A stretch of 64,000 nucleotides of DNA from Candidatus Epulonipiscium sp. (GTDB lineage: Bacteria; Bacillota; Clostridia; Lachnospirales; Defluviitaleaceae), in the NCBI GenBank assembly GCA_012519205.1, contig JAAYQR010000017.1, positions 1 to 64,000 on the forward strand. The letters run 5' to 3'. The notes beneath the pieces were generated by a model, which was not told the DNA's origin, made no database searches, and saw only the letters and a program-made list of their open reading frames with translations. The translations under genes were made by a program, and so were the position numbers. Below, piece by piece: positions 8,237 through 22,484 of this stretch (the first letter of the stretch is position 1; each line of letters starts with the position of its first letter).

Positions 8237-8266
8237 AACAAAGCCTCCTATTTAATTAATGAATTT

Positions 8267-8301
8267 TTAATAATTATACACATTTTATATGATTTATGCA
8301 A
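8267..8301 (-). promoter_or_regulatory. argGH promoter with ARG-box-like operator
   Basis: On the minus strand, TTGCAT (8296-8301) and TATAAT (8273-8278) are 17 bases apart. The sequence TGTATAATTATTAA (8267-8280 read on the minus strand) overlaps the -10 and matches a palindromic ARG-box core TGAATAATTATTCA at 12 of 14 positions. The arrangement is the mirror image of the argJB promoter. Confidence 0.7.
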
Positions 8302-8319
8302 GAGTATTTTAAAAAATAC

Positions 8320-8354
8320 TTGCATAAACTTTCAGTGTAATGTATAATTATTAA
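8320..8354 (+). promoter_or_regulatory. argJB promoter with ARG-box-like operator
   Basis: TTGCAT (8320-8325), a 17-base spacer and TATAAT (8343-8348) form a sigma-A promoter. TGTATAATTATTAA (8341-8354) covers the -10 and is an exact inverted copy of 8267-8280, with centres 74 bp apart. Between the two -35 elements lies a further imperfect inverted repeat (TTATGCAAG ... CTTGCATAA). Confidence 0.7.
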
Positions 8355-8401
8355 CATCATATTTGAAAAATGCATAACAAATTTTCTAAGGAGTGGTGAT
8401 T

Positions 8402-14827: not shown

Positions 14828-15009
14828 AAAAATTCTCCTTTCAATAAAAGAATACAAAACTTGACTCTTATTTTAGCATAGAATCTAATGAAGATATAGC
14901 CCTAACCAAAAATGTTTTTGGCTCTATGGGGGTATCCCCAAGCTTGTTTTGGTTTAGCTTTTATTATAGGATTAAATAGACTTTATGATTATTTAAGGTG
15001 GGATTACAG

Positions 15010-15861
15010 ATGATACAAATAATAATTGCAATGTTAATATGGGGAAGTATAGGGGTCTTTATTCAATATATTCATTTGCCTTCGATAGAAACTGCTTTTT
15101 TAAGGGCAGTCATAGCATCGGCATTTTTATTTGTATATACAGTTTATAGTAAAAAAGCACGGCTACATAAAATCAAAGAAAATATTATCCCTTTAGTAGT
15201 TGCAGGAATTGCGATGGGATTTAATTGGATTTTTTTATTTCAAGCTTATCATTATACAAGCATTGCCAACTCGACCATGAGTTATTATTTTGCTCCTATC
15301 ATCATTATACTTTTATCCCCCCTAATATTAAAAGAAAGGCTTACAATCCTAAAAATAATATCAAGCTTAGGAGCATTGATAGGTTTATTTATCATTATGT
15401 ATTATTCATCGGGAAATACGGTAGAAGGGACTAATGATAAATTGGGGATTATGTATGGCCTTTTAGCTGCTGCTCTATATGCTACGGTTGTATTATTAAG
15501 TAAGTACACAAAAGATGTATCAGGTATTGAAATGACCTTAATTGAAATAGCTTCAGCTGCAGTTGTTCTACTTCCCTTCGTATTGATGAGAAATGAACTC
15601 CATATCAAAGACATGACCAGTGGCATATTTGTTTTAATTATAGGGATAGTTCATACAGGAATTGCCTACGTCATATACTTTACTGGGGTTAGGCAAATTA
15701 ATGCCCAAGGGGCAGCCATCCTAAGTTATATAGACCCCTTATCTGCGATAGTTTTTAGCATAGCATTGTTAGGGGAACCACTTAAATTGCCGCAAATAGC
15801 AGGAGGCATACTAATCTTCGGATTTACACTTATAGGACAAATATCCAGATCAAAAAAGTAG
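15010..15861 (+). CDS. EamA/DMT family transporter
   Basis: A 283-residue membrane protein with ten hydrophobic segments in two EamA repeats (first repeat IIAMLIWGSIGVFIQYI; second GIMYGLLAAALYATVVLLSK). The family exports amino acids or other metabolites; the substrate cannot be told. The ATG at 15010 is chosen because AAGGTGGG (14995-15002) is 7 bases upstream; the GTG at 14998 lies within the SD. A single gene upstream of argD, separated from it by a terminator and the argD promoter. Confidence 0.9.
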   Translation: MIQIIIAMLIWGSIGVFIQYIHLPSIETAFLRAVIASAFLFVYTVYSKKARLHKIKENIIPLVVAGIAMGFNWIFLFQAYHYTSIANSTMSYYFAPIIIILLSPLILKERLTILKIISSLGALIGLFIIMYYSSGNTVEGTNDKLGIMYGLLAAALYATVVLLSKYTKDVSGIEMTLIEIASAAVVLLPFVLMRNELHIKDMTSGIFVLIIGIVHTGIAYVIYFTGVRQINAQGAAILSYIDPLSAIVFSIALLGEPLKLPQIAGGILIFGFTLIGQISRSKK

Positions 15862-15886
15862 GGAATTTATTTCCCTGCTTTTCTTG
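15853..15886 (+). terminator. Terminator after the EamA transporter
   Basis: AAAAGTAGGGAA pairs with TTCCCTGCTTTT (one G-U) around a short T/A loop and is followed by TTTTCTT. The TAG stop codon lies inside the left arm. Confidence 0.7.
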
Positions 15887-15952
15887 TGGCCACTGATTTA
15901 AAATGGTAGAAATTATAATAAGGCTTAAGATATAAGAGGCTTACTTAGACTC

Positions 15953-16041
15953 TTTTATAATTATACATGGTATTAATATTCAAATGAATAATTACCCTAT
16001 AATCATTGCATAAAATATCATTTAGATGTATAATTATAAAA
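15953..16041 (+). promoter_or_regulatory. argD operon promoter with mirrored ARG-box-like sites
   Basis: TTGCAT (16006-16011), 17 bases, then TATAAT (16029-16034), the same design as the argGH and argJB promoters. ATGTATAATTATAAAA (16026-16041) overlaps the -10, and its exact inverted copy is at 15953-15968, with centres 73 bp apart. A third partial ARG box (TGAATAATTACCCT, 15985-15998) lies between. Repression by ArgR, perhaps with looping, is inferred. Confidence 0.7.
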
Positions 16042-16076
16042 ATAAGAATAAGTAAAAAGATTAGGGGGAGATAGGT

Positions 16077-17267
16077 ATGTTACAGGATAAATGGGTAGAA
16101 CGAGGGAAAAATGTGATTATGAATACTTATAACCGTTTTCCGATTACATTAACTGAAGGTAAGGGAGTCTATGCAAAGGATACGAATGGAAAAAGATATT
16201 TGGATTTCGTATCCGGAATAGCTGTTAATGCATTAGGATATGGAAATAAAGCCATGGGTGAAGCTTTAGCCAGCCAAGTTAACAAGATGATGCATTGCTC
16301 TAACCTTTATTGGAATATCCCTGGAATTGAAGCAGCTGAGATGTTAATTAATAATAGTGTTTTTGATAAAGTATTTTTTTGCAATAGTGGAGCTGAAGCT
16401 ATAGAAGGTTCACTAAAGTTGGCAAGAAAATATGGAAGAAAGGTCCGTGGAGAAGGGTGCTATGAGATTATAACTATGAAGCAATCCTTTCATGGGAGGA
16501 CTTTAGGAGCTATTACTGCCACAGGTCAGCCAAAATACCAAAAAGACTTAAACCCTCTTTTAGACGGTGTTTTATATGCTCAGTACAATGACTTCGAATC
16601 TATAAAAGAACTAGTAAGTGATAAAACCTGTGCAATACTCCTTGAACCGATTCAAGGGGAAGGGGGAATATACCCAGCCCAAAAAGAATTTTTAGCAAAA
16701 ATAAGAAAGCTTTGTGATGAAACGGATATTCTCCTTATGTACGATGAGGTTCAGTGTGGTATAGGGCGTACAGGTCACTTATTTGCTTATGAAGCCTATG
16801 ATATAGCTCCTGATGTAATAGCTTTAGCCAAAGGTTTAGGAGGGGGATTTCCTATAGGAGCTATGATGAGCGTTAAAAAATGTTCTGATACATTTATTCC
16901 TGGAGATCATGCTTCAACCTTCGGGGGGAATCATATGGCTACAACTGCGGCAAAGGTAGTTTTAGATACTTTATTAAATGACAATTTATTAGCGAATGTT
17001 AAAAAACAAGGGAATTACCTTAAGGAACAACTTAATATTTTAAAGGAAAAATATGATGTTGTTAAAGATATAAGAGGAATTGGGTTAATGCAGGGCATAG
17101 AACTATCCATTCCTATAGGAAATCTTATTAAGGCCTGTATGGATAAAGGTCTATTACTTGTCGGGGCTGGTCCCAATGTTATTAGATTTGTTCCACCCCT
17201 GATTATAGAAGAAGAGGATATAAAAAAAGCAATACTCATATTAGAAGAGGCTATAAGGGAGGTATAG
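16077..17267 (+). CDS. argD: Acetylornithine aminotransferase
   Basis: A 396-residue class III PLP aminotransferase that makes N-acetylornithine from the semialdehyde. The PLP Lys is in ALAKGLGGGFPIGAM; FCNSGAEAIEGSLKLAR and DEVQCGIGRTGHLFA are typical. SD GGGGGAG before the ATG. First gene of the argD-carA-carB-argF operon; carA begins 2 bases after its stop, so they are tightly coupled. Confidence 0.95.
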   Translation: MLQDKWVERGKNVIMNTYNRFPITLTEGKGVYAKDTNGKRYLDFVSGIAVNALGYGNKAMGEALASQVNKMMHCSNLYWNIPGIEAAEMLINNSVFDKVFFCNSGAEAIEGSLKLARKYGRKVRGEGCYEIITMKQSFHGRTLGAITATGQPKYQKDLNPLLDGVLYAQYNDFESIKELVSDKTCAILLEPIQGEGGIYPAQKEFLAKIRKLCDETDILLMYDEVQCGIGRTGHLFAYEAYDIAPDVIALAKGLGGGFPIGAMMSVKKCSDTFIPGDHASTFGGNHMATTAAKVVLDTLLNDNLLANVKKQGNYLKEQLNILKEKYDVVKDIRGIGLMQGIELSIPIGNLIKACMDKGLLLVGAGPNVIRFVPPLIIEEEDIKKAILILEEAIREV

Positions 17268-17268
17268 T

Positions 17269-18348
17269 ATGAAGGCAAACATACTATTAGAAGATGGAAC
17301 AATCCTTACCGGTCAGGCATTTGGTGATAATAAAACTGTATTTGGGGAGATTGTTTTTAATACATCTATGACAGGATATCAAGAAACTCTCACAGATCCT
17401 TCTTATGCAGGGCAGATTTTAGTTATGGCATATCCCTTAATAGGCAATTATGGAGTGAATATAGAGGATGTAGAATCAGATAGGATACAGGTAGGAGGCT
17501 TAATTGTTAAAGAATACTCTAGGTATGAAAGTAATTGGAAGAGTCAAGGGAAGTTGTCTAATTATCTAAAAAATCATGGGGTATTTGCTATCTCAGGTAT
17601 TGATACAAGGATGCTGACCAAAAAAATCAGAAATCAAGGAGTTATGAAATGTGTTTTAACAACTAAAGAAATTACGCAAGATTTAAAAGGACAATTAGAA
17701 AAATACACCCCCCCAAACAATCTAGTAGCCAATATTTCAACAAAGGAAATAAAAGAAGTAAAAGGAGAGGGAAAACATATAGGAATAGTGGACCTAGGGC
17801 TAAAAAAGGGGATGGTCAAACAAGTACAAAACATGGGATGTTCGGTTACTATTTTTCCTTGGGATATTACTTATACGAAATTACTTTCCTATAATCTCGA
17901 TGCACTCTTATTTTCAAATGGTCCGGGCAACCCTAAAGATATAAAAAATACAATTTATACTGCAGAAAAGCTAATAGGAAAGTTGCCATTATTTGGCATA
18001 TGCCTAGGTAATCAAGTCCTAGCTTTAGCACTAGGGGGAGATACCTATAAAATGAAATTCGGGCATAGGGGGGCAAACTACCCTGTGCTGGATTTGAGGA
18101 CCAACAAGGTTATGATTACTTCTCAAAGCCATGGCTATACCGTAAGTGATAAGGACAATAAGGAATTAGAAATCACCCATATTAACGTTAATGATTTTAC
18201 TGTAGAAGGTTTTTGTAATAACAAGTTAAATATTCATGCAGTGCAGTTCCAGCCAGAAGCGGGTCCGGGGCCCAATGATGCCAGTATACTCTTTAGAGAA
18301 TGGATAAATTTACTCGATAAGGGGGAAGAAGATGCCCAAGAATATTGA
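17269..18348 (+). CDS. carA: Carbamoyl-phosphate synthase small subunit (glutaminase), with an altered active site
   Basis: A 359-residue small subunit. An N-terminal CPSase domain ([20 protein letters not shown]) is followed by a class I glutamine amidotransferase domain with the nucleophile Cys in [13 protein letters not shown]. The catalytic triad motif, normally FHPEA, here reads [13 protein letters not shown]: the expected His is Gln (codon CAG near 18253). If real, glutamine hydrolysis should be poor and the enzyme may use ammonia. The ATG is 2 bases after argD and the end overlaps carB by 17 bases, so all are co-translated. Its place in the arg operon suggests the arginine-dedicated enzyme. 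Confidence 0.93.
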
Positions 18349-21300
18349 ACTTAAAAAAGTAATGGTAATTGGTTCAGGTCCAATTATAATAGGTCAGGCT
18401 GCAGAATTTGATTACGCAGGAACCCAGGCCTGTAAGGCATTAAAAGAAGAAAACATAAAGGTTATATTAGTAAATAGTAATCCCGCCACAATTATGACCG
18501 ATGAGAATATGGCAGATAAAGTATATATACAACCTTTAGATGTAGAAGCATTTTCTTATATAATAAAAAAAGAAAGACCGGATGGACTTCTTCCTACATT
18601 AGGCGGTCAGACAGGATTAAATCTTGCGGTGGAACTAAAAGAGGCAGGAATATTGGATCAATACAGTGTAAAATTATTGGGGACTTCCTTAGAAGCAATT
18701 CAAAACGCAGAGGATAGGAAGAAGTTCAAAAAATTAATGACAAAAATCAATGAGCCTATTCCTAAAAGCAAGATTGTATCTTCTATGGAAGAAGGGATTG
18801 AATTTGCTAAGGAAATAGGATTCCCTATTATTGTAAGACCTGCATATACCCTAGGTGGAACCGGTGGTGGAATCGCCAATACTATAGAGGAACTAGAAAA
18901 AATACTTCATAGCGGCTTGATTTATAGTAGAATTCATCAGGTGCTCTTAGAACAAAGCGTTGCTGGTTGGAAGGAAATCGAATACGAAGTTTTGAGGGAT
19001 AGCAATGATACTTGTATTATTATATGTAATATGGAAAATCTTGATCCCGTAGGGATACACACAGGAGATAGTATTGTTGTTGCCCCTTCTCAGACCCTAA
19101 GAAAAGAAGAAGTATATATGCTTAAAAATTCTGCTATCAAAATAATAAGGGCCCTTAAAATAGAGGGAGGATGTAATGTGCAATTTGCTCTTAATCCCCT
19201 TAGCATGGAATATGTAGTCATAGAAGTTAATCCTAGGGTAAGTCGTTCTTCGGCTCTAGCTTCTAAGGCTTCTGGATATCCTATTGCAAAGATCTCTGCA
19301 AAGATAGCTATTGGGCTACATCTTCATGAGATACCAAATTATGTTACAGGTAAAACCAAGGCCTCTTTTGAACCTGCCATGGATTATATAGTAACTAAGA
19401 TTCCAAAATGGCCCTTTGATAAATTTGGATATGCCGATAGATTGTTGGGAACCCAAATGAAAGCAACAGGGGAAGTTATGGCCATTGATAGGAATTTTGA
19501 AAGTTCGTTTTTAAAAGCAGTGATTTCCCTTGAAGGAAAAGGTACGGGTCTAAGAAAAAAAGGTTTAAGTTCAAAAACCGACTTTGAAATTCTAAACAAA
19601 CTCAGCATAGCTGACGATCAGAGGATTTTTGTAGTGGCTGAAGCCTTAAGAAGAGATATGGGTATAGATATTGTTTACAATATTACTAAGATTGATAAAT
19701 GGTTTTTATATAAGATAAATCATATAGTCGAAATTGAAAAAAGACTTCAAAATGAACCTTTTACTGTAGAGTTATTAAAAGAAGCAGAAGAAATGGGTTT
19801 TACCGATATCGAGATTCAGGATTTATCCAAACAGCCTCTTTCCATGTTGGATACCTTAAGAAGAGCCCACAATATGTATCCGGTTTATAAAATGGTAGAC
19901 ACTTGTGGAGGGGAATTTGAATCTAATACCCCTTACTATTATTCCACCTACGAACAGGAAGACGAAAATATAATAAGCAAAAAAGAAAAAATTATTGTTA
20001 TAGGTTCGGGGCCCATTAGAATAGGACAGGGTATCGAATTTGACTATTGTTCCGTTCATGCAGTTTGGGGAATAGAAGAGGCAGGATATCAATCAATAAT
20101 TATTAACAATAATCCAGAAACCGTAAGTACAGATTTTGATACGGCAGGGAAACTTTATTTTGAACCCCTATTTATCGAGGATGTATATAACGTTATAAGA
20201 AAAGAAATGCCAAAGGGTGTTATTGTTCAATTTGGGGGGCAAACAGCAATCAATCTAGCCCCCAAATTATTAAAACGGGGGGTACAAATACTAGGTACTT
20301 CTGTAGACTCTATTGACGTGGCAGAAGATAGAAAATTATTTGAACAGCTACTTCGGGAACTAGATATTCCTCAACCTAAGGGCTATGCTGTAATCAATAT
20401 GGAAGAAGCAATAAAAGTAGCAAAAAAGATTGGATATCCCGTGTTAGTAAGGCCTTCCTATGTTATTGGAGGAAGGGCAATGCAGGTGGTATATTCCGAA
20501 AGCGAGTTAAGAGGATATGTAAAAGAAGCAGCCTCCCTCTCAACGGAACACCCTATTTTAATAGATGAATATATAGAAGGAAAAGAAGTAGAAGTTGATG
20601 CGATTTCTGATAGAGAAGATATATTAATACCGGGTATTATGGAACATGTTGAAAGAACGGGGGTTCATTCAGGGGATAGCATTTGTGTCTACCCACCTCA
20701 GAATCTTTCACAAAATATAATCAAGATCATAACCCAATATACTAAAAAAATAGCTAAGGCATTGCAAGTAATAGGACTTATGAACATTCAGTTTGTCGTA
20801 AAAGATGAAAAAGTATATGTAATAGAAGTTAATCCGAGGGCCTCAAGGACTGTACCCATCTTAAGCAAGGCAACAAAAATCCCTATGGTAAATGTTGCAG
20901 TAAAAGTTATCTTAGGAGAAAGATTAAAGGAACTTGGATTTGGAGTAGGATTATATAAAAATAATAATCTTGTAGCTGTAAAGGCTCCTGTATTTTCATT
21001 TCAAAAACTCAATAATGTTGATGTGGCCTTAACTCCAGAGATGAAGTCCACAGGTGAAGTTTTGGGAGTAGATTCTAGTTATGAAAAGGCCTTGATAAAG
21101 GCATTCAAAGGGGCAGGTTATACCTTCCCAGATGGGGGGAATGTATTCGTATCTCTAAATGAGAAGGATAAAAAAGAGGCATTTGAAATTTTAGAAACCT
21201 TAAAAGGATTGGGATTTGAGCTTGCAGGAAGTGAAGGGACAGCAAGGTATTTCTCAGAGAAAGGGTTAAAAATAAAAGTCCTTTCACTGAATAAATTTGA

Positions 21301-21526
21301 TGAAATTTATAATGCAATGAAAAACAAAACTATAACTATGGTCATTAACACACCTACATTAGGTAAAAATCCAAATAAAAATGGATTCAAGATTAGAAAT
21401 GCTGCCCAACAAATAAATATCCCTTGTTTTACATCCTTAGATACGGTAGGAGCATATATTAAGGCTTATAAAACATATAATGAAAAACAGTTCCTAACAT
21501 ATGAAACAATGAATTATTACATATAA
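18332..21526 (+). CDS. carB: Carbamoyl-phosphate synthase large subunit
   Basis: A 1064-residue enzyme with two ATP-grasp halves, each beginning with a similar motif ([20 protein letters not shown] near residue 12; [19 protein letters not shown] near residue 556), followed by a C-terminal MGS-like allosteric domain ([20 protein letters not shown]). Full length for the family. It overlaps carA by 17 bases and is followed 16 bases later by argF. It makes carbamoyl phosphate, which ArgF uses next. Confidence 0.98.
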
Positions 21527-21542
21527 AGATAGGAGGATTTCT

Positions 21543-22484
21543 ATGGGAATGAACTTAAGAGGGAGAAGTCTTTTAACCCTAAAGGACCTTACCCCTGCAG
21601 AAATAAAATATTTATTAGATTTAGCAGAGGATTTAAAAAGAAAAAAACGAATGGGCATACAAGGAAATCTTTTAAAAGGTAAAAATATTGCCCTCATTTT
21701 TGAAAAGCCTTCTACACGAACAAGATGTGCTTTTACAATAGGTTGTATTGATGAAGGGGCCCATCCTGAATATTTAGGAAAAGATGATATTCAATTAGGC
21801 CATAAGGAATCTGTAGAAGATACGGCAAGGGTATTGGGTAGACTGTTTGATGGAATACAGTTTAGAGGATTTGAACAAAAAACTGTGGAAAAACTTGCAA
21901 AATACAGTGGAGTACCAGTTTGGAATGGTTTAACCGATAGGTATCATCCTACACAAATTCTTGCGGATTTTTTAACTGTTAAAGAGAAATTTGGATATTT
22001 AAAAGGAATTCGTTTTGTATATGTTGGAGATGGGAGAAATAATATGGGAAACAGTTTAATGATAGGCGCATCTAAAATGGGTATGGATTTTGTCATAGCC
22101 GCACCAAAAAGCCTATGGCCTGAAGAGTTGCTTATTGAAGAATGCAAAGACTTTGCAAAGGAATCTGGAGGTAAAATCACCATTACAGAAGATGTTGATT
22201 TTGCTGTATTAGGGGCCGATGTTATTTATACCGATGTTTGGTGTTCCATGGGTGAAGAAGAAAAGGGAAAGGAACGCATTGAGCTATTAAAGCCTTACCA
22301 AGTCAATGGGACATTGATGAATAAAACTAAAAAAGAAGAAACATTATTTATGCATTGTCTTCCAGCAGTTAAAGGTAATGAGGTAACTGAAGAAGTGTTT
22401 GAGGGAAAGGCTTCAGTAGTTTTTGATGAAGCGGAAAATAGAATGCACACCATTAAAGCGGTTATGGTTGCCACATTGGCTTAG
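21543..22484 (+). CDS. argF: Ornithine carbamoyltransferase
   Basis: A 313-residue enzyme that joins carbamoyl phosphate to ornithine, giving citrulline. The carbamoyl phosphate motif [12 protein letters not shown] and the ornithine-binding [10 protein letters not shown] are both present. SD AGGAGG precedes the ATG. Last gene of the argD-carAB-argF operon. I see no strong terminator after it; the next unit begins with its own promoter. The anabolic form is inferred from context; argF and argI/arcB forms cannot be separated by sequence alone. Confidence 0.97.

Follow-up and report, generated by a model that had tools for sequence, protein, structure and literature searches.

A candidate auxiliary ArgR operator upstream of the argD promoter in Defluviitaleaceae

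ARG boxes at the argD promoter

The window, that is, the whole 64-kb stretch of DNA analyzed here, carries an operon that begins with argD, named from its context, and continues with ORFs whose translations read as carA, carB, and argF (Table 1). The nearest gene to the left, encoding an EamA-family transporter, lies on the same strand, and no leftward ORF of at least 80 aa is listed between that gene and argD, in line with the preliminary description of this promoter as one lacking a divergent gene. Upstream of argD, TTTTATAATTATACAT at 15953-15968 is the exact reverse complement of ATGTATAATTATAAAA at 16026-16041, which spans the TATAAT of the putative argD promoter; the two 16-mers have the box centres given in Table 1 and are separated by 73 bp, whether measured between their starts or their centres. 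An exact inverted repeat of at least 16 bp occurred in none of 300 dinucleotide-preserving shuffles of the 215-bp intergenic stretch (longest, 15 bp). The coordinates and the shuffles thus bear out what had been described earlier, an element over the argD -10 with an exact inverted copy 73 bp upstream, and the spacing said to be that of the divergent argG/argJ promoters is nearly so (73 versus 74 bp) but not exactly.

The 16-mer core, TATAATTATA, is a perfect palindrome, and the upstream copy read in the direct sense still matches at 12 of 16 positions. By its fit to the consensus, the whole 16-mer belongs to the ARG boxes, putative operators of ArgR, and its palindrome is imperfect, so the word "inverted" alone carries little meaning and it is position that counts. 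An ArgR is encoded in the genome under study (G000), with PF01316 and PF02863 in one 153-aa ORF on contig C10. ARG boxes were scored as the number of matches over 14 consensus positions, using a consensus that agrees in outline with the forms quoted in the accessible text of PMC4865122, and this consensus discriminates weakly in an AT-rich genome. Searches with the element itself were no more selective: at up to three mismatches the 16-mer has 13 sites in the window against a shuffle mean of 8.9, with 10 of 100 shuffles reaching 13, so that enrichment is unclear, and the core pattern at up to one mismatch gives counts of 41/37 across the whole genome against 45/34 for a control pattern, that is, no enrichment and a search that does not discriminate. 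For this reason, we place weight on exactness, position, and conservation.

Scored in this way, the paired design described earlier is present, but it is better put as up to four boxes, at 0, -20, -42, and -73 relative to the main box. The sites at -20 and -73 both read as imperfect palindromes of TGNAT-like half-sites, with one half-site G missing at -73. The main and -20 boxes together cover the -10 and -35 of argD, the -73 box lies outside the promoter, and all the boxes fall on roughly the same face of the DNA. Scanning 15830-16100 for consensus promoters yielded none, because the -35 TTGCAT matches TTGACA at only three of six positions.

Table 1. Positions of the argD promoter boxes, neighbouring genes, and comparison boxes in the 64-kb window
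Feature	Position	Strand	Remarks
Main ARG box over argD -10	16025..16042	+	Centre 16033.5; holds 16-mer 16026-16041; in 8/8 family argD promoters
ARG-box-like site at -20	16005..16022	+	Overlaps -35 TTGCAT; consensus 12/14
Weak ARG-box-like site at -42	15983..16000	+	Left half good, right half degenerate; 11/14, shuffle p 0.03
Candidate auxiliary ARG box at -73	15952..15969	-	Centre 15960.5; holds 16-mer 15953-15968; consensus 13/14
Putative argD promoter, TTGCAT-17-TATAAT	16006..16034	+	-35 at 16006-16011, -10 at 16029-16034
argD, class III aminotransferase	16077..17267	+	First gene of the operon; ORF, PF00202; name from context
carA, carB, argF ORFs after argD	17269..22484	+	Putative names, read from translations
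EamA-family transporter	14998..15861	+	Codirectional neighbour; nearest gene left of argD
ARG box over argG -10	8266..8281	-	Divergent pair, for comparison
ARG box over argJ -10	8340..8355	+	Divergent pair, for comparison; 74 bp from argG box

Conservation of the upstream box in the family

Among 31 argD loci, close named relatives account for five, with 73-75% identity, namely Defluviitalea phaphyphila and MAGs labelled Epulonipiscium, the remaining 26 being distant. In the NCBI taxonomy, D. phaphyphila belongs to Clostridia, Lachnospirales, Defluviitaleaceae, and we took Defluviitaleaceae as the family of the window. The family sample comprises eight genomes (G000-G007) of four genera and hence few independent observations. 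Seven of the eight argD upstream regions came from a first locus search, and that of G005 came from a second locus (L066), because the main argD locus of this genome is cut at a contig start.

Mapping the boxes onto these promoters, we found the main box over the -10 and the TTGCAT-17-TATAAT promoter in all eight genomes, together with a -20 site that scores 12/14 in the genome under study and 13/14 in the other seven. The upstream site scores 13/14 in every one of the eight and keeps its distance, lying at -73 in G000, G001, and G002, at -75 in G004, and at -72 in G003, G005, G006, and G007, with a shuffle p of 0.0005-0.0045 per genome (2,000 shuffles each, eight genomes). A second putative site for the same protein thus lies at a conserved, helically phased distance of 72-75 bp in 8/8 argD promoters. 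The -42 site is less regular, scoring 11-13/14 in six genomes and 8/14 in the remaining two, a score that shuffles equal there. Ranked by a position weight matrix trained on ten argG/argJ(C) boxes, whose core is common to all by construction, the upstream site comes second in six of the eight promoters (G000, G001, G002, G003, G005, and G007) and lower in G004 and G006; the looser 14-position count was then used.

Cross-genus identity was computed over 14 bp in 17 pairs from seven genomes, omitting G005 because its promoter stretch matches that of G003. The main box reaches 98%, the -20 box 90%, and the -42 box 54%. The upstream box, anchored at its best site within seven positions, reaches 79%, compared with 33% in its left flank and 34% in its right. 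When the same procedure was slid along the seven promoters, every third window between -150 and -21 was read; these gave 24-59%, with 53-54% at the edges of the peak, and none of the other windows read showed a peak comparable to that of the upstream box.

The exact inverted copy itself is not conserved, matching at 16/16 positions only in the genome under study and at 10-15/16 in the other seven. Judged from these alignments, what is conserved upstream of argD appears to be a near-palindromic ARG box, not an exact inverted copy. The neighbouring gene is codirectional with argD in 8/8 genomes but differs in kind: an EamA transporter gene in G000, a hydrolase-like gene in G003, G005, G006, and G007, and an HD-domain-like gene in G001, G002, and G004, the last two labels being putative and based on reading of the translations. 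The earlier proposal that the upstream copy is kept for regulation and not for a second promoter is supported by its presence in all eight genomes at -72 to -75, between flanks that are not conserved, with no leftward -35 and with the leftward TATAAT missing from four of the eight; absence of the copy from close relatives, which would have spoken against it, was looked for in the sequences, and the box was present in each.

Divergent and non-divergent arg promoters

Divergent argG/argJ(C) regions were read in five family genomes; in G007, argG sits at a contig end and the region is unreadable, and no match to argG was found in G002 and G004, which are 91% and 85% complete. We extended the comparison by searching 392 genomes of the order for pairs of exact cores, allowing a spacing of 58-88 bp. 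Such pairs occur in 13 of the 392 genomes, the control columns having no match, and 16 of 17 distinct places have a spacing of 71-74 bp beside argG/argC, argG/argJ, or argD, with gene names assigned by reading and the contexts of L129-L131 taken from coordinates. Two of these 16 places duplicate each other on a G007 contig that seems to be mirrored, and another (G293) lies between argG and a contig end. The mirrored contig (G007:C11; L005, L062, L108, and L109), 22 kb long, carries the argD and argJ ends twice in opposite, mirror-like orientation and is probably an assembly artefact.

In the class, a search of 391 genomes, some shared with the order sample, yielded four matches: the genome under study, two with a spacing of 73 bp at argG/argC, and one with a spacing of 63 bp at argB/argC. 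The last, in G420 (L135) of another order, has its divergent boxes about one helical turn closer than the usual 73 bp. A search at a fixed spacing of 73 bp with at most two mismatches matched 12 of 246 genomes, and a control pattern matched 2. From this search we did not count L136 and L137, which are divergent argG/argC regions, L138, flanked by argG on one side, with a leftward non-arg ORF at a distance of about 250 bp and an upstream box of poor quality, or L141-L143, which are chance-like.

The spacings of the lineages (74, 73, 73, 73, 71, 73, 73, and 63 bp) cluster by helical phase, with a resultant of 0.89 and p of about 0.0004, a value that treats the eight as independent, which is not fully true. 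The seventeenth place of the order search, a 60-bp pair of exact cores in G295 located inside a 735-aa ORF, was dropped from this test as background. Most of the phase signal comes from the near-constant spacing, and periods of 10, 10.5, and 11 do not differ in fit. Part of the 71-74 bp spacing at divergent promoters could stem from the way promoters pack.

The pairing does not hold as a general design. In G002 and G004, where no argG was found, argJ follows a codirectional neighbour and has the 0 and -20 boxes, but an upstream box is absent (best scores 9/14 and 7/14, respectively). Likewise, argC and a transporter gene of the genome under study have 0/-20 pairs, with scores between -76 and -70 of at most 8/14 and 9/14; argC has a 12/14 site at -97. 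The absence of the box at argJ in two genomes, at argC, and at the transporter gene indicates that the auxiliary box is optional and that ArgR control does not depend on it. From the sequences compared, argD appears to have retained an auxiliary box and argJ without a divergent partner not to have done so. The gene read as argC (L079, G000:C27:65436; 318 aa, putative name) lies on a different contig from argJ and argB and has a 14/14 ARG box 20 bp upstream of its -10, over the likely -35. The transporter site (L078, G000:C23:34244) is a fully palindromic ARG box, TTGTATAATTATACAA, before a gene for a solute-binding protein of a putative amino-acid ABC transporter.

Possible roles of the upstream box

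The -73 site is real and conserved and is most likely an auxiliary ArgR operator in an upstream position. We consider it probable that argD-carAB-argF is controlled by ArgR through a tandem operator at 0/-20 together with the -73 box, with hexamers bridging the two. The main operator would consist of the boxes over the -10 and -35 of argD, and the auxiliary box would lie about seven helical turns upstream, perhaps aided by the weak -42 box. Arginine-bound ArgR hexamers would grip the main pair while touching the -73 box, the 73 bp between the boxes would be bent or looped, and the bridge would raise occupancy of the promoter pair. A 73-bp DNA loop is short, which speaks against this reading. 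From the arrangement of the boxes, which bridging or looping would fit, we infer ArgR binding, a bridge, and stronger or sharper repression, and by analogy with known ArgR systems the protein on the 0/-20 pair could reach the -73 box. A role of the box as a roadblock against transcription coming from the left seems less likely, since ArgR reportedly performs poorly as a roadblock in E. coli (PMC6640053, accessible part).

A stricter form of bridging seems less likely than not: a fixed bridge of seven turns, with four DNA-binding domains on -20/0 and two on the box 73 bp away, would be a geometry common to divergent argG-argC/J promoters across several families, kept one-sided at argD purely for repression. 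Somewhat unlikely, in our judgement, is that the -73 box serves as a separate ArgR site, where a second hexamer on -73, with -42, would act locally without a loop, by cooperative bending or by crowding the alpha subunits of polymerase. In the six family promoters with a -42 site of 11-13/14, its distance to the upstream box is 30-33 bp, close to the centre-to-centre spacing of 29 bp computed for B. subtilis argC from the available description (18-bp boxes with 11 bp between them), and some relatives have further sites near -62. However, the -42 site is poorly conserved and the -73 site well, so that the latter seems independent of the former, and what is held constant, at 72-75 bp, is its distance to the main box.

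A leftward promoter, either relic or cryptic, in which the upstream element would be the -10 for an antisense RNA or for a divergent gene since lost, is very improbable. The copy is exact in the genome under study, TATAAT included, its spacing is nearly that of divergent argG/argJ, and the leftward TATAAT is retained in four of the eight genomes, with TATATT, one base away, in G002; yet the remaining three read CATAAA, AATATT, and CATAAA, and the ARG pattern persists where the leftward -10 is lost. A leftward TTGCAT or TTGACA at 16-18 bp is found in none of the eight (best match, 4/6), against TTGCAT-17-TATAAT in all ten promoters of the five divergent argG/argJ(C) regions. We therefore set this reading aside as unlikely: the leftward -35 is not conserved, and only half of the genomes keep TATAAT. 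The argD region thus has neither the leftward -35 and -10 nor the leftward gene of a divergent arg promoter, and a leftward transcript starting at the upstream box would run antisense to the EamA gene. Least probable of all is an origin by chance or as a by-product of the upstream gene's end, a terminator T-tract or stop codon resembling an ARG box, for even though the box overlaps a putative T-tract of the upstream terminator at L002, L003, L005, and L007 and the upstream stop codon at L004 and L006, the by-product is disfavoured by the three different kinds of upstream gene and by the sole terminator-like site found here, which lies away from the box at 15860-15876, and chance by the shuffles and by the sliding control, with its peak restricted to -72 to -75.

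Bridging by ArgR at argD would have its nearest known case in the AhrC model for B. subtilis argC, in which, according to the accessible text of PMC3293853, one AhrC hexamer touches three ARG boxes; the argCo1 and argCo2 sites are described in the part of PMC9245794 available. As at argD, an ArgR-family hexamer acts there, on argCJBD-carAB-argF, through a promoter box and further boxes. In those descriptions, one box covers the -10/-35, its immediate upstream neighbour is set off by 11 bp, and a distant one lies downstream inside argC. At argD, by contrast, 20 bp separate the centres of the two promoter boxes, the distant box lies on the upstream side (-73), and argD is the first gene of the operon. 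The 0/-20 pair in turn resembles the tandem boxes of E. coli carAB P2, artJ, and artP, which the available portions of PMC6245113 and PMC6640053 place about two turns apart over promoter elements, as 18-bp boxes with 3 bp between them. On two such boxes one arginine-bound hexamer, sitting on one face of the DNA, represses (PMC6245113, accessible text), with four of its six subunits engaged (PMC7248756, likewise in part); repression from two adjacent boxes speaks against the bridge proposed for argD. Unlike argD, these tandem operators have no upstream auxiliary box described in the accessible text of PMC6245113 and PMC6640053. We found no description of an argD-type layout in the literature searched, which covered few subscription papers and parts of the others, and we do not claim its absence from print.

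An upstream auxiliary operator probably extends the known control by ArgR/AhrC through multiple boxes. A symmetric pair of ARG boxes can exist for either of two reasons, to serve a promoter on each side or to form a single repressor bridge, and the argD promoter tells these apart because only the bridge seems to apply there. Moreover, a single family offers a natural contrast between argD with an auxiliary box and argJ that lacks both the divergent partner and the box, so that the function of the hexamer's spare DNA-binding domains becomes accessible to small-scale tests.

The divergent argG/argC and argG/argJ promoters of this and other families share with argD boxes over the -10s at 71-74 bp, but there both boxes lie on promoter-like sequence with a gene on each side, compared with one only at argD. 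Between their -35s, we also observed strong conservation of a palindrome-like stretch around TGCAAGTATTTTTTAAAATA...CTTGCA (8290-8335 in the window; L111-L114), present in 5/5 divergent family regions and in looser form in other families. Its appearance is not that of an ARG box, and it could represent a shared UP element or the target of a different regulator.
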